Positions 1 to 4,597 of a stretch of 30,970 nucleotides of DNA are shown here, piece after piece. The notes beneath the pieces are model-generated. The model was not told the origin of the DNA, did no database searches, and saw only the letters and a program-made list of their open reading frames with translations. Made by a program: the position numbers and the translations under genes. Numbering within the stretch: the stretch's first letter is position 1; the number at the start of each line of letters is the position of its first letter. Location: IMG/VR virus record IMGVR_UViG_3300043427_003765, positions 1 to 30,970 of that record; one strand, written 5' to 3'. Source of the stretch: a virus.

Positions 1-149
1 AATTGACGCATACCGTCTTGCCACTCGAAGAACAACTCGAGAGCAGCTTGACGCTGCGCCTCAAGTTCTTGGTCGATGCAAGGGGCATCTCTCCTGGCGA
101 GCAGACGAGCGTCTTGGGTCAGGAGATATTCAACAGCTTTAGGAGTCAT
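1..149 (-). CDS. Leftward small protein, N-terminal part (runs off window)
   Basis: The frame reads leftward from an ATG at 149 and stays open to the window edge (49 codons seen). The product starts MTPKAVEYLLTQDARLL and continues with a charged, probably helical stretch rich in Glu, Gln and Arg. I do not recognise it. The start has no Shine-Dalgarno sequence; it is preceded by AGGACTCAACC, the same core as in the hairpins upstream of the genes starting at 636 and 965. It is the last visible member of the leftward cluster and is separated from the gene at 242-445 by a two-hairpin leader. Its orientation, start context and spacing match its neighbours, which is the main support for calling it a gene. 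Confidence 0.55.
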   Translation of the reverse strand, partial: MTPKAVEYLLTQDARLLARRDAPCIDQELEAQRQAALELFFEWQDGMRQ

Positions 150-241
150 GGTTGAGTCCTGGTGGTGTCGTGTGGTGTATGCAGAGCTAAGCCCTGCAGA
201 AACCCATCACATCCAGTGGACATGATGGGAAAGTGCAGAGA
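150..241 (-). promoter_or_regulatory. Two-hairpin leader (A) before the gene starting at 149
   Basis: Read on the minus strand, 229-203 folds into a 12-bp hairpin (arms CCCATCATGTCC and GGATGTGATGGG, loop ACT). Two pairs are G-U, which become A-C mismatches on the plus strand, so the fold fits a leftward RNA better than the plus strand. A second hairpin at 197-181 has arms GCAGGG and CTCTGC (one G-U) and loop CTTAG. Blocks CTGCACTT and GGGTTTCTGCAGG are shared with the leader at 637-731. Confidence 0.6.
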
Positions 242-445
242 TCAGTTGACGTACTTACTGTTGATGCAGTAGTACGTATCGCCAAGGAATCCTTGGACGT
301 AGATCAGATTGTGTCCTGGTCGGTCATGGCACGTTGCTTGGTAGTGTCTGTTGAGAAGCTTCTGCGCTCCAACAGATAGCAGTAAACCCAAGCCAGAGCC
401 AAGAATAAGAGCGACACAGGAATCAGAGATGTAGTTGGTACGCAT
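242..445 (-). CDS. Small single-pass membrane protein, unknown function
   Basis: This 67-residue product starts MRTNYISDSC and has one hydrophobic stretch at about residues 10-28 (VALILGSGLGLLLSVGA), then a polar C-terminal part with two cysteines (C39, C60). It looks like an N-terminally anchored inner-membrane peptide with a short soluble tail. Its ATG at 445 lies two bases beyond the TGA of the upstream gene (448-636), so the two are probably translationally coupled. It is the only gene in the leftward cluster without a hairpin leader. The family is not recognised; small membrane peptides of this kind are common in phage early regions. Confidence 0.6.
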   Translation of the reverse strand: MRTNYISDSCVALILGSGLGLLLSVGAQKLLNRHYQATCHDRPGHNLIYVQGFLGDTYYCINSKYVN

Positions 446-447
446 GA

Positions 448-636
448 TCAGTTGCCTTGCTTAGGAGTGATGACGAATGCCATATCGTTAGGCATCATGA
501 GTGCCGCTGCACGCAGCCGATACTCATTCACCTTAGTACCGATGTCTTCCTTGGCAGGAAGCTTGGCATTCTCTACTGCAGCAGCAGTATTGACTAGCAG
601 TGCTGCAAGGTTCTTGCGGATGTGTAATGCAGTCAT
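448..636 (-). CDS. Small protein of unknown function
   Basis: I choose the ATG at 636, giving a 62-residue product beginning MTALHIRKNLAALL. The frame is open further, to an ATG at 708, but that extension would run through two strong hairpins (657-675 and 680-720) with homologues in the leaders of neighbouring genes, so it is more likely untranslated. The N-terminal half is Ala/Leu-rich and helical (residues 3-23), followed by KLPAKEDIGTKVNEYRLR, a possible second helix. There are no recognisable catalytic motifs. The stop lies two bases before the start of the 242-445 gene, suggesting one transcript. Confidence 0.6.
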   Translation of the reverse strand: MTALHIRKNLAALLVNTAAAVENAKLPAKEDIGTKVNEYRLRAAALMMPNDMAFVITPKQGN

Positions 637-731
637 GAGCTGAGTTGAATTGAATGGCAGGATGTTGAGTCCTGCAGAAAACCCACCGTCGTAGTACATA
701 CATACCACAACGGAAGGGTTAAGTGCAGGAG
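637..731 (-). promoter_or_regulatory. Two-hairpin leader (C) before the gene starting at 636
   Basis: On the minus strand 720-680 forms a long hairpin: outer arms AACCC and GGGTT, then an 11-bp stem with arms CCGTTGTGGTA and TACTACGACGG and loop TGTATG. Two of its pairs are G-U and would be A-C mismatches on the plus strand. A second hairpin follows at 675-657 with arms GCAGGA and TCCTGC and loop CTCAACA, ending 20 bases before the ATG. The second hairpin has a near copy at 988-1006. Confidence 0.65.
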
Positions 732-965
732 TCAGAATGCTACCGCATACATGATGTCTTGAATCATGGTCATGGAGTAGTTGTAGTACTCGCGCATCTC
801 GTCGTACAACTCCTTGGTACCCGTAGGTATCCCTGACATGAATGACATCGTGTCAAGGTACTTCCATTCGCCGTCCTTCAGTTTCTGGAAGTGAAGCATA
901 GAGCTTTCACCTCCGTTCCAAATGACGCGATGGAGTGTGTCGAACTCAGGCTGGTAGATCAGCAT
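732..965 (-). CDS. Small soluble protein of unknown function
   Basis: This 77-residue product starts MLIYQPEFDTLHRV at the ATG at 965. It is rich in aromatic residues and Met and contains the run DEMREYYNYSMTMIQDIMYA near the C-terminus, which looks helical. No signal peptide or membrane span is seen. The start is preceded by CTCAACACC and has no Shine-Dalgarno sequence; the same TCAACACC precedes the start at 1860 and a related CACAACC precedes 1228. It lies between two structured leaders (966-1039 upstream and 637-731 downstream). The family is not recognised. Confidence 0.6.
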   Translation of the reverse strand: MLIYQPEFDTLHRVIWNGGESSMLHFQKLKDGEWKYLDTMSFMSGIPTGTKELYDEMREYYNYSMTMIQDIMYAVAF

Positions 966-1039
966 GGTGTTGAGTTAACAATGGAATACAGGATGTTGAG
1001 TCCTGTTGAGGGGACTGTAGTCCCCAGAGCAAGAGTCAG
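966..1039 (-). promoter_or_regulatory. Two-hairpin leader (D) before the gene starting at 965
   Basis: On the minus strand, 1025-1010 is an inverted repeat (GGGGACT, two bases, AGTCCCC). It is followed by a hairpin at 1006-988 with arms ACAGGA and TCCTGT and loop CTCAACA. The second hairpin has the same loop as the one at 657-675, but its outer pair changes from G-C to A-T, so base pairing is kept. It ends 22 bases before the ATG, against 20 in leader C. Confidence 0.6.
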
Positions 1040-1228
1040 TTAGATCTTGTAGCCGTTAGTGACGCACCAATCACGGTGGATTTGATCGGCTTCCTTCGGC
1101 CAGTCATGGGTAATGCATTGCTTGGCAGTTGCCTTATCAATGAAGTAACCAGCGACTGGACCTACTAAGATGCCGAAGCCAAATGCCTGGATGATGATGA
1201 GTGCGTAGACGTTCTGTCCTTTGATCAT
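1040..1228 (-). CDS. Small membrane protein, unknown function
   Basis: I take the ATG at 1228, giving 62 residues that begin MIKGQNVYALIII. A hydrophobic segment at about residues 7-28 (VYALIIIQAFGFGILVGPVAGY) is followed by a soluble tail with Cys, Trp and His residues (KQCITHDWPKEADQIHRDWC). This fits an N-in or N-out anchored peptide with a short domain of about 30 residues. An upstream in-frame GTG at 1288 lies inside the loop and arm of a hairpin (1275-1293) that is duplicated before the next gene, so I reject it as the start. The context before the ATG is CACACAACC without a Shine-Dalgarno sequence. The family is not recognised. Confidence 0.6.
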   Translation of the reverse strand: MIKGQNVYALIIIQAFGFGILVGPVAGYFIDKATAKQCITHDWPKEADQIHRDWCVTNGYKI

Positions 1229-1311
1229 GGTTGTGTGGTATAGGTAGATGCCACTGACTTGTGGCAATACTGAAGGCAGGGTTTGCACCTGCCAATGCCG
1301 CTTATACGGAC
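1229..1311 (-). promoter_or_regulatory. Structured leader (E), paralogous to 1594-1677
   Basis: The 83-base leader begins directly after the upstream stop codon with TCCGTATAAGCGG, then a hairpin at 1293-1275 (arms GGCAGG and CCTGCC, loop TGCAAAC), then AGTATTGCC and a second hairpin (arms GCCAC and GTGGC, loop AAGTCA), then CCACACAACC before the ATG. Leader F has the same blocks in the same order and almost the same length (84 bases). Confidence 0.65.
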
Positions 1312-1593
1312 TCAGTCTTCATCTTGCCAAGCAAGGCGCTCCTGCTCACGCTGACGCATGAACTTGATGATGCCTTGCAGTTCGGCAAGTGTTAGATAAC
1401 CCGTTGGGTCACACATACCTGGAAACCACGCTTCATAGGTGGTCTCTGCGCCTGGATCGTTAGCTGCCATCAGTCCTGAACCCTTGGGTCCAGTGACGAT
1501 AGAGATTTCGCCAACAAGGCTGTCAATGTACACAAGGTGGAAACCACCAGGTACAGCAGGGTGTTGTACCCAACCAGTAGTCAGGTCAATCAC
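1312..1593 (-). CDS. Protein of unknown function (about 93 aa)
   Basis: I prefer a GTG start at 1593: it is preceded by AGGAG with a six-base spacer, and it leaves an upstream leader of 84 bases that matches the leader of the next gene block by block. The product then starts (M)IDLTTGWVQHPAVPGG, has a beta-type core (FHLVYIDSLVGEISIV), an acidic loop and a helical C-terminus (LTLAELQGIIKFMRQREQER). The frame is open to a GTG at 1656, which would add 21 residues encoded across the hairpin. No motif or family is recognised. It lies in the leftward cluster, one base before leader E. Confidence 0.55.
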   Translation of the reverse strand: MIDLTTGWVQHPAVPGGFHLVYIDSLVGEISIVTGPKGSGLMAANDPGAETTYEAWFPGMCDPTGYLTLAELQGIIKFMRQREQERLAWQDED

Positions 1594-1677
1594 AGGAATC
1601 TCCTGTTGTGCGGTGCCTATCTCCGCTGGAGGCAATAACTGGGCTAGGGTTTGCACCTAGCCTCCCGCTTCAACGGA
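1594..1677 (-). promoter_or_regulatory. Structured leader (F), paralogous to 1229-1311
   Basis: Directly after the upstream stop come TCCGTTGAAGCGG, a 7-bp hairpin at 1662-1642 (arms GGCTAGG and CCTAGCC, loop TGCAAAC), AGTTATTGCC, a small hairpin (CTCC, AGC, GGAG), and CCGCACAAC. The main hairpin keeps the loop of leader E but swaps a C-G pair for T-A. A further hairpin at 1606-1592 (arms ACAGGA and TCCTGT, loop GAT) covers the Shine-Dalgarno sequence and the start of the GTG. Confidence 0.65.
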
Positions 1678-1860
1678 TCAGCCTTTAGCTTGAAGCTGCT
1701 TGATAAACTTCCGTGCTTGATCAACAGACATCGTGGTGCTACAGTCGTAACCCTTCTGGCTCTTACGAACCAGCTTGGTGATACGAGCTAAGCCCACTTC
1801 CTTGTTGACAACGAAGTAATAAACAGCTTGCTTGGTGTTGACGACGCAATGAATGTCCAT
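1678..1860 (-). CDS. Small basic protein of unknown function
   Basis: This 60-residue protein starts MDIHCVVNTKQAVYYFVVNKEVG at the ATG at 1860. The first 30 residues look like two or three beta strands and the last 25 (VDQARKFIKQLQAKG) like an amphipathic helix; the protein is rich in Lys. The overall look (short beta hairpin plus helix) is common among phage early proteins that bind host proteins or nucleic acid, but nothing specific is recognised. It is the first gene of the leftward cluster: upstream lies the non-coding stretch 1861-2340, so a promoter for the cluster should be there. TCAACACC precedes the start. Confidence 0.6.
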   Translation of the reverse strand: MDIHCVVNTKQAVYYFVVNKEVGLARITKLVRKSQKGYDCSTTMSVDQARKFIKQLQAKG

Positions 1861-1930
1861 GGTGTTGAATAAGATTGAACGCTGCTACGTTTAACGTCCA
1901 GCTTGACGTGAATCATTGATTCAACTGCTC
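1861..1930 (-). promoter_or_regulatory. Leader/operator region of the leftward cluster (G)
   Basis: Two inverted repeats lie before the ATG at 1860. TGAATCA-T-TGATTCA at 1909-1923 is a 15-base palindrome with one central base. ACGTC / GACGT at 1894-1909 has a six-base loop. They could be hairpins of a leader RNA, as in the five other leaders, or binding sites for a repressor at the first promoter of the cluster. No clear -35/-10 pair is seen. Confidence 0.4.
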
Positions 1931-2340
1931 TCTATCTTCTGTCATTCCTTGAGATCCCTTGTGCGAGAACTGTTCTTGGCAAAGCAGTCTGTCGGGTAGC
2001 CTAAATTCCGCGCGCGCGATGTCATGAAATCCTGACAATTGTTGCCGAAAAACCCAGGATATGATCAATAACTTATGCTTTGATGTCTTAGCGAACGAAG
2101 TGAGCGCTCTCTTCGTGAACGCAGTGAACTCTTACTCGCACATAACATAACCTAACCTAAGTTACCCTCCCCACCCTTTCTTTTTTTCTATACGCAAATC
2201 GCTACGCGGAGGGGTATGGAGAAGCGTCAGGAAATTTTTTATCCTTTTTCGACCCTATACGGACCCTCTTTTGTATCGCAACGTACCAAAACTTAAAAAG
2301 TGTCGCCTTATTTAAAGGTTTACCCTAGTTTTTACACAAA
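1931..2340. other. Non-coding stretch with palindromes and pentamer repeats
   Basis: No convincing gene is present. Visible elements are an alternating CG run near 2009-2018, an inverted repeat at 2020-2037 (TGTCA / TGACA), a 20-base near-palindrome at 2096-2115 (CGAAG, T, GAGCGCTC, T, CTTCG), an imperfect direct repeat (GAACGAAGTGAGCGCTCT at 2093-2110, GAACGCAGTGAACTCT at 2117-2132), a run of four pentamers at 2141-2160 (CATAA twice, CCTAA twice) and an AT-rich stretch from 2220. Such a mix is compatible with a replication origin or a control region, but there is no direct evidence for either. Confidence 0.4.
2141..2160. repeat. Tandem pentamer repeat (CATAA)2(CCTAA)2
   Basis: Four pentamers follow without a gap between the palindrome at 2096-2115 and a pyrimidine-rich tract (2161-2190). 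Short iterated units next to an AT-rich segment are typical of initiator-binding sites, but four units are too few to be sure. Confidence 0.45.
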
Positions 2341-2364
2341 AAAGCCGGGGTGTTTGCCCCGGCT
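2335..2364 (-). terminator. Intrinsic terminator for the leftward gene 2390-2605
   Basis: Arms AGCCGGGG (2343-2350) and CCCCGGCT (2357-2364) pair perfectly around a six-base loop. On the minus strand the stem is followed by a run of T (bases 2342-2336). It lies 25 bases after the stop codon of the leftward gene. No T run follows on the plus strand, so the direction is clear. Confidence 0.9.
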
Positions 2365-2389
2365 GTGTCATGAATTTATCTTTACGTTA

Positions 2390-2605
2390 TCAAAAACCGT
2401 ACATTTTGCTTTGCGCTGTTTCGGCTGCGCTTAAAGCTTTGGCGTATGACTGCCAATCAGGCTTTTGTCGGGCTAATTCCCCCCTGGCACCCTGAATAAA
2501 AGTACGTACTTCGAGGGGATCAGACCCTTGATCCGCCATTTCCTCTGCTTTTGCTTTAATTGCTTCGAGTGCAACAACCCTTTGCGCTCTATCTTTTACG
2601 TCCAT
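2390..2605 (-). CDS. Small helical protein of unknown function
   Basis: This 71-residue product starts MDVKDRAQRVVALEAIKAKAEEMADQG at the ATG at 2605. It is rich in Ala, Glu, Lys and Gln and looks almost entirely helical, with a conserved-looking tail (KPDWQSYAKALSAAETAQSK). The start is preceded by TTATAGAATTTTTGGAAC, which offers both a -10-like TAGAAT and a weak GGAA ribosome site. A strong terminator closes the gene (2335-2364), so it is a transcription unit of its own, divergent from the long rightward block that begins at 2735. No family is recognised; it could be a small regulator or a virion-associated peptide. Confidence 0.7.
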   Translation of the reverse strand: MDVKDRAQRVVALEAIKAKAEEMADQGSDPLEVRTFIQGARGELARQKPDWQSYAKALSAAETAQSKMYGF

Positions 2606-2734
2606 GTTCCAAAAATTCTATAAAACCCTAAATGGGGCTTAAAACTTTTCTTGATAATAGTCTAACGTAGCTATTTTTCCAAATTTCTACCTTTAAAATA
2701 CAAATAACAAGGTCAATAGACAAAATATTTACCC
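2606..2734. promoter_or_regulatory. Divergent promoter region
   Basis: This 129-base AT-rich gap separates the leftward gene (start 2605) from the rightward virion block (start 2735). It carries TAGAAT on the minus strand close to the leftward ATG, and TAAAAT at 2694-2699 on the plus strand, 35 bases before the rightward ATG. The plus-strand box is of the same type as those before many genes further right. No -35 element is obvious. Confidence 0.5.
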
Positions 2735-4597
2735 ATGGTACTCGCGCCGTCCGATTTTTACGCTTATAGCCGCGCAACCGGAGTGCCGGTACCAGAAAAC
2801 CCAGAAGAAAGAGCGGCTTTAACTCCAGAAGTCCTTGAATTCCGCCGTAATCAGTTACGTGCCCCACAACAGGAGTCAAATCCACTTGCTGCCCTTGGTG
2901 CTGCAGCGTTAGGAGTTGGCGCTTTAGCTGGTAGTGTGGCACTTGCTCGCCGCCTTGGCTTTGGTGCACCCAAAGTTGCAGCATCTAAAAAACCTGCATT
3001 TACACAAGAAGCGCTTCAAAACGTTAATGCATTAGGTCGTCAAGAATCTTTAGAACAAGTCATTCGTCAAGCAAGGCAAGAGCGTCCAACCGGCATTGTT
3101 CAGACTGATCTTGCGGCAGTAAACAAAATCCTGGAAGATCCTGAACTCAAAAAACTTGTTCAACGGCAAACTGCGGAAGAAGAGGCTGAGCTTCGCAGTG
3201 AAATGGCGCGTCAACAGGCACGTGTTCAAGCACAAAAACGCGAAGACCTCTGGAGCCTAGTCAAAGAAATTCAAGCAGAAGCGCCTGTTGTTAACCAAGC
3301 GATTGGAGCCCTGGAGTCTGGTGAAGATCAGATGACAAGTCGTGTTATGCGTGGCGTACTACGCAACGAAGATCTTGATGCCTCTCAAGTTAATCAAATT
3401 GCACGTCAAACAGGCAGTGTAAAAGTAGCTGCTTCGATGACACCTGATGGTGTACCTGTTGATCAAACTGATGTTTGGGGTGGAGCAACACTTCCTACTT
3501 TGACGCAAGAAGGTCAACAATATGGGCCAGAGCCTCTTCGGTTACTGCCTGCTGCAACCCAAGGCCGCCAACAGCAAGCACAGTCGTTCCTAGCGCAAAA
3601 ACGTCAAGAACTTTCTGGTCGATTTGGCCCAACACGTACCGAAAGAATCCTAAGCGAGAATCCTGAACTTCTTGAGGCAGCAGAGCTTTATGCAACCACT
3701 GGCGATCCTAACGTTCTTTCTCGTTTTTCTACAGCACCTTCTACTCCAATCACTGTAAAACCTACAGTACAGATGGGCATTAATGCAGAAGAATTTCCAA
3801 CCGGACAATTTTACAAAAAAACCGGTTATCCGGAGAACACGGGAGATCTACTGGAGCGTGACATTGAACTTACCAATGAAATTTCTTCCATTGGTCTGCA
3901 GCAACAACAGTTAGCGGCTAAAGCACAAGAGCTTGGTGAGCAAGAGTTAATGCTTCGTGTAGCCATGGATCGTGATCCGGAAGGTGGCGGTGCGTACACC
4001 AAAATGTTTGGCCGGGTTAAATATGAGCAGCAAAACTTACCGGATCCTGCGTCTCTTAACGTTGATTTGGGTGATGTACTTGAAGAAAGAAATTTTTTAC
4101 GGCGCTACATGGACTCATTAGAGTCTCTGGGATCTACTTATAAATTAGGTGATTTTCAAGAAGGTGTACGTCCTTTTTATGAATATGATCCTCAAGGCAA
4201 TATTATTCCTCAGACTCTTGAGTTACGTGGTGGCCGACGTTCTGTTGATCTTGAGCCTAAAACCGGTGGTGGTCGTTTAGTTGCCGAATACGATCCCGAA
4301 GGGCAAACTGGGAGTACACGTGGAATTTATGGCGTAGAACAAACGTCTCGTCGCACCGGAGAATCAACCCGACCCACTCAAATGACAATGAACGAGTTAG
4401 TACGTGAAGGTCTAGAACAAGCTGTTGCTTCTCCGGAAGGCGACGTACCTATGCCTCCAGCTTTAACGGCAATGACCGAACGTCGTCCCACTTCTGCTGC
4501 ACGGCGCAGTATTGATGCAAGTCAAATTGTGCGTCAAGCTATAATTGAGGGGCGCGACCCGCAGGTGGTATTACGTCAACGCGGTTTTAATGTGTAA
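2735..4597 (+). CDS. Large virion-type protein, probably internal/ejection protein
   Basis: This 620-residue protein starts MVLAPSDFYAYSRATGV at the ATG at 2735. A short Ala/Gly-rich hydrophobic segment (about residues 49-70, NPLAALGAAALGVGALAG) is followed by long charged helical stretches rich in Gln, Glu and Arg (about 85-215) and a second coiled-coil-like region (about 370-410, with LQQQQLAAKAQELGEQELML). The C-terminal third is rich in Gly, Arg and Thr, and the protein ends DPQVVLRQRGFNV. Hydrophobic patch plus long helices is the usual make-up of podovirus internal proteins that are ejected with the DNA and cross the envelope, but no homologue is recognised. It leads a run of ten similar genes and starts the rightward block. 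Confidence 0.7.
   Translation: MVLAPSDFYAYSRATGVPVPENPEERAALTPEVLEFRRNQLRAPQQESNPLAALGAAALGVGALAGSVALARRLGFGAPKVAASKKPAFTQEALQNVNALGRQESLEQVIRQARQERPTGIVQTDLAAVNKILEDPELKKLVQRQTAEEEAELRSEMARQQARVQAQKREDLWSLVKEIQAEAPVVNQAIGALESGEDQMTSRVMRGVLRNEDLDASQVNQIARQTGSVKVAASMTPDGVPVDQTDVWGGATLPTLTQEGQQYGPEPLRLLPAATQGRQQQAQSFLAQKRQELSGRFGPTRTERILSENPELLEAAELYATTGDPNVLSRFSTAPSTPITVKPTVQMGINAEEFPTGQFYKKTGYPENTGDLLERDIELTNEISSIGLQQQQLAAKAQELGEQELMLRVAMDRDPEGGGAYTKMFGRVKYEQQNLPDPASLNVDLGDVLEERNFLRRYMDSLESLGSTYKLGDFQEGVRPFYEYDPQGNIIPQTLELRGGRRSVDLEPKTGGGRLVAEYDPEGQTGSTRGIYGVEQTSRRTGESTRPTQMTMNELVREGLEQAVASPEGDVPMPPALTAMTERRPTSAARRSIDASQIVRQAIIEGRDPQVVLRQRGFNV

Follow-up and report, generated by a model that had tools for sequence, protein, structure and literature searches.

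Why should a phage place a structured RNA leader in front of one small gene after another? The question is raised by a cyanobacterial virus, record IMGVR_UViG_3300043427_003765, a stretch of 30,970 bases (hereafter the window), in which a cluster of small leftward genes occupies roughly positions 1-2000. An earlier note, made from the letters of the window, had described the leaders of six of these genes (named here by their start positions 149, 636, 965, 1228, 1593 and 1860) as one family of two-hairpin structures. Comparative sequence analysis, on which all the evidence below rests, divides this supposed family: the leaders of 1228 and 1593 are members of a large family of tRNA-like RNAs (class A), those of 149, 636 and 965 are of a second kind, and that of 1860 is pseudoknot-like. 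The comparison set consisted of Synechococcus phage S-EIVl and 21 viral loci reached via the first rightward protein of the window. S-EIVl is the only relative among 50,697 phage records (through a 509-residue protein with 54% identity), and its sole megablast match to the first 5 kb of the window is a segment of 54 bases (90.7%) lying over the 1593 element. Viral contigs were also scanned with patterns for two subtypes, A1 (at least 119 stretches, copy numbers being lower bounds) and A2 (72 stretches); the loci were partly picked by the very patterns under study, which biases loop frequencies, and covariation, the N-UU trinucleotide and gene placement less so. The class A features of the window are the following, where L numbers denote loci and R1 is a covariance model whose training alignment includes both leaders.

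1634-1683, minus strand: tRNA-like core of subtype A1 before gene 1593 (sequence; R1 E 2.6e-16 as a training member; covariation of 138 relatives)
1683-1679 and 1641-1637, minus strand: acceptor strands of the 1593 core
1676-1665, minus strand: D-arm-like hairpin of the 1593 core
1662-1642, minus strand: T-arm of the 1593 core, loop TGCAAAC at 1655-1649
1636-1634, minus strand: N-UU of the 1593 core
1678-1680, minus strand: stop codon TGA of gene 1860-1678, two of its three bases within the acceptor 5' strand (open reading frame list; same placement in relatives)
1610-1633, minus strand: H-type pseudoknot of the 1593 leader, stem S1 pairing 1633-1631 with 1617-1615 and stem S2 pairing GCGG 1626-1623 with CCGC 1613-1610 (compensatory changes in relatives)
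1591-1606, minus strand: hairpin ACAGGA/UCCUGU of the 1593 leader (by eye; similar in S-EIVl, L092 and L105), the 5' side containing AGGAG and the 3' side some of the GTG start (1593-1591)
1266-1316, minus strand: tRNA-like core of subtype A1 with a longer junction, before gene 1228 (R1 E 8.2e-14 as a training member)
1316-1312 and 1273-1269, minus strand: acceptor strands of the 1228 core
1309-1298, minus strand: D-arm-like hairpin of the 1228 core
1294-1274, minus strand: T-arm of the 1228 core, loop TGCAAAC at 1287-1281, one U-U mismatch at the base
1268-1266, minus strand: N-UU of the 1228 core
1312-1314, minus strand: stop codon TGA of gene 1593-1312, within the acceptor 5' strand (open reading frame list; relatives)
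1250-1265, minus strand: hairpin GCCAC/GUGGC between the N-UU and the ATG of gene 1228 (predicted fold; same hairpin family in relatives)

From 5' to 3' a class A element is made up of an acceptor-like strand, a small D-arm-like hairpin, a T-arm with a seven-base loop and the acceptor 3' strand. T-stem and acceptor form one continuous stack of 12 (sometimes 13) positions, there is no anticodon arm, and the insert that separates acceptor from T-stem usually has 14-17 nucleotides. The rule of 12 positions rests on an anchor-free scan for NUU, a scan allowing 11, 12 or 13 having scored longer stacks higher. The small hairpin is CCG-UNNAAG-CGG in A1, GGC-GUGA(U)-GCC in A2 and of other forms elsewhere, for example GCU-GGUGCGC-AGC. 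Among the T-loops are UGCAAAC, UGCAAUC, UGCAAUG and AUCRAAU along with the fully canonical UUCGAUU, UUCGACU and UUCAAUU, and a G is frequent at position 55 of A1 cores. With any loop admitted, a scan yielded 589 sites (284 sequences), of which 291 have the signature [TA][GT]C[AG]AN[CT] (a share biased by the choice of loci), against 160 sites and none with the signature in reversed sequences. The trinucleotide GGT occurs in 14 of 19 unique inserts accompanying TTC T-loops and also in 43 of 94 accompanying TGC, where it comes from stem bases, so that as a test for a tertiary contact between D-loop and T-loop the association is not clean. The earlier note was thus right about structured leaders and about the presence of the loop TGCAAAC in both, and the centroid fold predicted for the 1228 leader contains the class A junction; a single two-hairpin family did not survive, class A and class B differing in architecture. 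The TGCAAAC hairpin belongs to a three-way junction as one of its arms, and the tRNA-like architecture (12-position stack, T-loop, N-UU) and the stop codon in the acceptor strand had been missed.

Some minor observations on form may be added. Certain A2 copies (in L094, L098, L105 at about 8088, 8132 and 7425 on the minus strand, L142, L256, L272, L275 and L278) have an extra hairpin GGUC-AUYU-GACC ahead of the D-arm-like one, and their acceptor strand, by eye, extends into the upstream gene. The variant pattern TATCCG returned only two viral stretches. Matches of the first pattern in L004-L010 were set aside as chance, no T-arm site of the sought form being present there.

The fold of class A elements is very probably real, and covariation carries this conclusion. 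Folding all six leaders, as had been proposed, gives an energy that is by itself convincing for only three of them (dinucleotide-shuffle z of -3.5, -5.8, -2.8, -1.8, -1.2 and -1.6 for 149, 636, 965, 1228, 1593 and 1860), and it is the relatives that settle the two tRNA-like ones. In the 138 distinct A1 sequences 97.4% of 2070 pair cells are paired, and 12 of the 15 pairs have changed on both sides, which bears out the paired stem changes first seen within the window; cells changed on both sides number 471 against a shuffled mean of 132, and slid partners pair at most 50.4%. The corresponding values for A2 (53 sequences of 54 listed rows, L129:3938-3999 being left out before alignment as a likely chance site) are 94.6% paired, changes on both sides in 11 of 15 pairs and in 33 cells (8.4 when shuffled), and at most 55.8% for slid partners. 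The acceptor varies as a unit, being GCUAAG/CUUAGC in L101, AGUUG/CAACU in L106 and GACA/UGUC in L226, with a weak outermost pair (unpaired in 27 of 138 A1). A test that does not presuppose the stems asked of 153 A1 pattern sites whether they offer four or more contiguous T-stem pairs and a formable acceptor (a lenient criterion); 147 have both. Of the other six, two in L162 appear to be shifted homologues, and the remaining four are chance sites. The remark that three hairpins of the window contain G-U pairs which would be A-C mismatches on the opposite strand holds on larger numbers, with 77 G-U against 8 A-C cells in A1 and 22 against 10 in A2. This excess indicates that the leftward RNA is the functional, selected strand, in agreement with what the note had proposed.

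The 3' side of the elements is far better kept than the 5' flank, which has no comparable conservation. In searches made without a 3' anchor, NUU directly follows the 12-nucleotide 3' strand in 165 of 168 A1 cores (N being A in 141, C in 21, G in 2 and U in 1) and comes after 12-14 nucleotides in 69 of 71 A2 cores. Downstream of it lies a hairpin or an H-type pseudoknot, and then the start codon. Stem S2 is fully paired in 93 of the 94 unique pseudoknots of relatives, that is, in 375 of 376 cells, against at most 334 with partners dealt anew; its pairs include GCGG/CCGC (62), GCAG/CTGC (11), GTGG/CCAC (10), AGGG/CCCT (3) and rarer others.

The elements are also placed in a regular manner between genes. 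Among 274 unique sites, 7 are too close to a contig end; for the other 267, which include a few chance sites, an open frame of at least 30 codons ends at most 45 nucleotides before the T-loop in 257, and a start codon follows in 266. The stop codon lies exactly 25 nucleotides before the T-loop, overlapping the acceptor strand, in 202 of 332 sites (copies not collapsed). Of these 202 stops, 174 terminate frames that run for 40 codons or more, the neighbouring frames giving 66 of 404. The start codon comes 32-40 nucleotides after N in 120 of 134 hairpin-type sites and 41-48 after it in 95 of 122 pseudoknot-type sites (scan from 28). The nearly constant hairpin-to-start distances reported for the window, 46 and 48 bases for the TGCAAAC loop and 20 and 22 for the CTCAACA loop, are as given. 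GTG-start open frames run into three leaders (708, 1288 and 1656); start distances that differ among relatives by non-multiples of three argue against translated leaders.

Such narrow distances would suit a translation module, in which the tRNA-like leader stays in the message and boosts translation of the downstream gene, with the hairpin or pseudoknot and the start-codon hairpin tuning initiation. tRNA-like structures placed before a Shine-Dalgarno sequence gave 2- to 6.3-fold translation in vitro (PMC9142559; papers are cited here and below for particular passages), and in some families of downstream genes the 3' part goes with the gene, being a pseudoknot in 17 of 17 and 13 of 13 members. 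As this alternative leaves the near-invariant NUU and the embedded upstream stop codon unexplained, we consider it unlikely.

Grouping 243 sites by downstream gene gave 61 families, 33 of them singletons, and showed that cores are exchanged before orthologous genes. The largest family (41) has 16 A1, 9 A2 and 5 A4 cores, 5 with canonical T-loops and 6 others; the second (31) has 21 A1, 9 A2 and one other. The 3' part is constant in some families, the hairpin being kept in 14 of 15 and 8 of 9 members where it is not the pseudoknot just mentioned, and mixed in others (6 and 6; 29 and 12). A corresponding clustering of upstream proteins was dropped after stop-to-stop frames had produced a spurious family of 161 members. 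That orthologous genes carry different core subtypes suggests that shape rather than sequence matters, and our reading of these comparisons is that the core may be recognised by its shape while the 3' part would belong to the gene.

This exchange, and conservation at the DNA level where the genes are not conserved, could also be expected of a DNA-level linker, a conserved junction for recombining gene cassettes. The compensatory changes and the one-strand G-U excess, in contrast, show selection on RNA structure, and exchange may be a by-product; covariation largely refutes a linker as the main function, and we regard it as very improbable. Somewhat less improbable, if still doubtful, is a binding site or riboswitch that would place the whole cluster under the joint control of a protein, from phage or host, or of a small ligand. 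The presence of several copies in one genome, in front of neighbouring genes, fits this idea, as does the strong conservation of P2 and the T-loop inside A1; between subtypes, P2 and T-loop sequences vary before orthologous genes, unlike a sequence-specific site or a ligand pocket, and a metabolite riboswitch ranks low because the loops differ in this way.

From the fold, its covariation, strand, position, recurrence and exchange of cores we infer a cut, an enzyme that would make it, a protection of the resulting ends and a coupling to translation. That the elements are processing sites for some nuclease seems to us fairly probable, and this is the one of the roles listed in the earlier note (the others, translation control and a site for an RNA-binding protein, are the lower-ranked rivals above) that we prefer. 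The more specific proposal, that class A elements are tRNA-like intercistronic processing sites acted upon by a host tRNA-processing nuclease to yield 5'-protected messages, stands in our judgement about evenly between true and false, and RNase Z as the cutter falls slightly short of that. Under this proposal the host tRNA-processing machinery would read the element as a pre-tRNA without CCA; RNase Z would measure from the elbow and cut after the discriminator-like N, before UU. Cutting would punctuate the leftward polycistronic transcript: a compact tRNA-like fold would close the upstream message, and the downstream one would start with UU, two bases before a hairpin or pseudoknot that shields its 5' end. 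A ribosome terminating at the stop codon in the acceptor strand would melt the acceptor, and cutting could therefore depend on translation of the upstream gene. The complete picture is a tentative one: a phage tRNA-punctuation in which undescribed anticodon-less tRNA mimics, laid over stop codons in unrelated phages, would split the early transcript into separate 5'-protected messages by way of host tRNA maturation enzymes, with upstream translation deciding the cut. If the processing reading is right, phages would be seen to recruit host RNase Z, E or P for the maturation of their mRNA, by a route open to direct test, and the element could serve as a compact part with which to split synthetic operons in cyanobacteria.

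In favor of RNase Z, the bacterial enzyme cuts after the discriminator, binds the elbow and is inhibited by CCA, mostly by C74 (PMC7479834, PMC3161902, PMC4810234), and cyanobacteria possess RNases Z, P, E and J (PMC10989914). The absence of CCA after the discriminator in class A, given the NUU of 165 of 168 A1 cores, fits a CCA-less substrate. In a cyanobacterial metagenome-assembled genome (35 tRNA gene matches, 30 read, 28 judged) CCA is encoded in none of the 28, N74 is U in 18 and C in 10, and N75 is U in 17. Ceballos-Chavez and Vioque (2005) reportedly studied the site choice of the Synechocystis enzyme. Several points weigh on the other side. UU stands at N74-N75 in only 9 of these 28 tRNA genes (CU in 8), so that the UU of the element is stricter than the host-like pattern and may have another cause; the Rfam tRNA model does not match the elements; in two sites of a cyanobacterial metagenome-assembled genome the acceptor is unpaired; and tRNA leaders can raise translation without being cut (PMC9142559). 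Moreover, NUU also suits the rule of cyanobacterial RNase E (PMC10989929), which leads to the strongest of the rivals, although we still consider it unlikely: another nuclease, either RNase E cutting the single-stranded NUU between helices or RNase P cutting 5' of the acceptor, with the fold positioning the cut or guarding the end. The sites of Synechocystis RNase E lie immediately after hairpins, with a preference for U at +2 and for A at -3/-4 (PMC10989929), many junctions between CAGUU and AUU fit it, and RNase P accepts hairpins of acceptor and T-arm and some phage RNAs (PMC11143913). RNase E, however, does not require a T-loop or a 12-position stack, and RNase P, cutting on the 5' side where conservation is poor, would take the stop codon away from the upstream gene.

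Processing by tRNA-like units has precedents. In mitochondrial tRNA punctuation and in plant mitochondrial t-elements, tRNAs or tRNA-like units between genes are excised by tRNA-processing enzymes; these systems are organellar and mostly involve full tRNAs, whereas class A belongs to phages and its cutting is putative. The early genes of T7 have RNase III sites as structured intercistronic processing sites, which are long hairpins, in contrast to the short arms with a T-loop of class A. tRNA mimicry as such is already known from plant RNA viruses and a herpesvirus. The plant-virus structures of the TYMV type mimic the tRNA elbow, are cut by RNase P and contain pseudoknots (PMC4810234, PMC11143913), but they form the 3' end of an RNA genome with a pseudoknotted acceptor, while class A has an ordinary acceptor helix within DNA-phage operons. 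The tRNA-miRNA-encoded RNAs of murine gammaherpesvirus 68, like class A, have a viral tRNA-like element followed by hairpins and are processed by tRNase Z (PMC4838037); unlike it, they are Pol III noncoding transcripts of a eukaryotic virus. The yjdF riboswitch (RF01764) is likewise an mRNA leader with a tRNA-like fold, in which two loops act as D- and T-loop (PMC9142559), but it occurs as single copies in Firmicutes leaders, is cloverleaf-like with an anticodon-like loop and depends on a ligand, whereas class A is without an anticodon arm and repeated between phage genes.

Rfam 15, searched up to E 10 with window positions 1-2735, 16 loci and 5 loci, returned 1, 4 and 2 matches, respectively, all far below gathering scores; in these stretches neither yjdF nor the motifs manA, wcaG and PhotoRC-II, named as cyanophage motifs in PMC2864571, were matched. 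With tRNA (RF00005) the elements share the 12-bp acceptor plus T-stem with its T-loop, and neither the anticodon arm nor a match to its model; ARAGORN found no tRNA in the window. Catalogues of candidate RNAs are available (PMC2864571, PMC8040213), and our searches of an open-access library turned up no account of repeated tRNA-like elements between DNA-phage genes. The difference from mycobacteriophage start-associated sequences already suspected is confirmed: these, repeated before many non-structural genes of cluster K phages, consist of 13 bp situated 3-7 bp ahead of the start, are in some cases accompanied by inverted repeats of 17 bp, and lack a tRNA-like junction (PMC3203893), and the 13-bp sequence (GGGATAGGAGCCC, consensus from the same paper), sought 3-7 bp before the start, is absent from the six leaders.

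The class A element is frequent in S-EIVl-like cyanophages. R1 has 32 matches at E<=0.1 in 22 sources (most being training sequences), all on the minus strand and upstream of the rightward genes. The further copies with compensatory changes anticipated before leftward genes of relatives do exist. Searching nine whole phage records with R1 gave 1-4 matches in eight (19 in total), clustered at one place per record; the ninth, that of L109, has none, yet holds an A2 copy. A scan of bacterial and archaeal genome contigs returned at least 119 stretches, mostly chance matches. Among the matches listed, 11 sites have a T-stem of at least 4 pairs, 8 of them (in six contigs) judged plausible and 3 chance; R1 found ten sites in the fetched regions (E 1.2e-10 to 1.7e-4). 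Source names come from record titles, and bins may be wrong. One site is in Prochlorococcus sp. AG-409-P19, two are in the cyanobacterial metagenome-assembled genome in which, as said above, the acceptor is unpaired, and one is at a contig end in another cyanobacterial metagenome-assembled genome. L417, a contig from horse faeces binned as an archaeon, has four A1 cores in 1.8 kb (9757-8022, minus strand), a U run after each acceptor and a ThiF-family gene nearby. L418, binned as Clostridia, has an A1 core directly 3' of a stop codon (11125-11063, minus strand) on a contig encoding a phi29-type packaging protein and a type B DNA polymerase, as in a phi29-like phage. N-UU is present by eye in the horse-faeces, Clostridia and Prochlorococcus copies. 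In a Ktedonobacteraceae metagenome-assembled genome, A1-like cores lie upstream of IS605 OrfB-like (TnpB-like) genes in L420 (1478-1419, minus strand) and L421 (605-663, plus strand), the identity being given by a Pfam match for one of the two genes.

The rightward part of the window encodes a terminase, a portal-like virion protein and a major head protein. Of eight leftward proteins sent to Pfam, six had no match and two had weak ones below the cut-off. A terminator-like hairpin with a T run at 2343-2364 (minus strand), 3' of the leftward gene 2605-2390, suggests a possible separate promoter for the small-gene cluster, somewhere from about 1900 to 2340. A promoter scan of 1-2735 was uninformative (2 promoter-like sites against 3.0 expected) and gave no consensus match in that interval.

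The leaders of 149, 636 and 965 form a second family, class B, unrelated to class A in architecture. They and the 1860 leader are laid out as follows.

657-730, minus strand: class B leader of 636, with TCCTGC at 730-725, the middle strand GCAGGA at 675-670 and TCCTGC at 662-657, a long hairpin lying between the first two
181-240, minus strand: class B leader of 149, with CTCTGC at 240-235, a hairpin at 229-203, GCAGGG at 197-192 and CTCTGC at 186-181
988-1034, minus strand: class B-like leader of 965, with hairpins at 1025-1010 and 1006-988 (ACAGGA/TCCTGT; from the sequence)
1884-1908, minus strand: small pseudoknot-like fold in the leader of 1860 (by eye), with CGUC/GACG and a loop GCU facing a downstream AGC

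The hairpins with the loop CTCAACA are present on the minus strand as described before (GCAGGA/TCCTGC at 675-657 and ACAGGA/TCCTGT at 1006-988), and the three strands of class B change together. Two-hairpin sites with a GCAGNN middle strand number 125 in the loci and 19 in reversed sequences; a 5' strand complementary to the same middle strand is found in 73 of the 125 and in none of the 19; when middle strands are dealt anew, the mean is 32.5 and the maximum 47. Either neighbour is thus an available partner for the middle strand. The best predicted fold takes the 5' partner in the leader of 636 and the 3' partner in that of 149; in the leader of 965 it departs from the two hairpins. The 5' strand of the 965 leader matches the middle strand at only 5 of 6 positions. 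On these comparisons, class B may be a bistable switch, or a precursor that refolds after cutting.

Sequence similar, by eye, to the 1860 leader precedes the first genes in L091, L092, L094 and L105. Small leaders that resemble H-type pseudoknots and contain UUAAA in their third loop (an example is GUCCUGAGUAUGAC-CUUAAAAGA-CUCA) occur in L001 (about 8085 and 7364, minus strand) and at 1884-1908 (minus strand) of the window. In a further kind of leader, a conserved, asymmetric internal loop containing GURUAAGU sits within a stem such as CCUGGG/CCCAGG; this kind is seen on the minus strand in L001 (about 10030-9990 and 9345-9280), in L105 before 5134, and before the first genes of L092 and L105.

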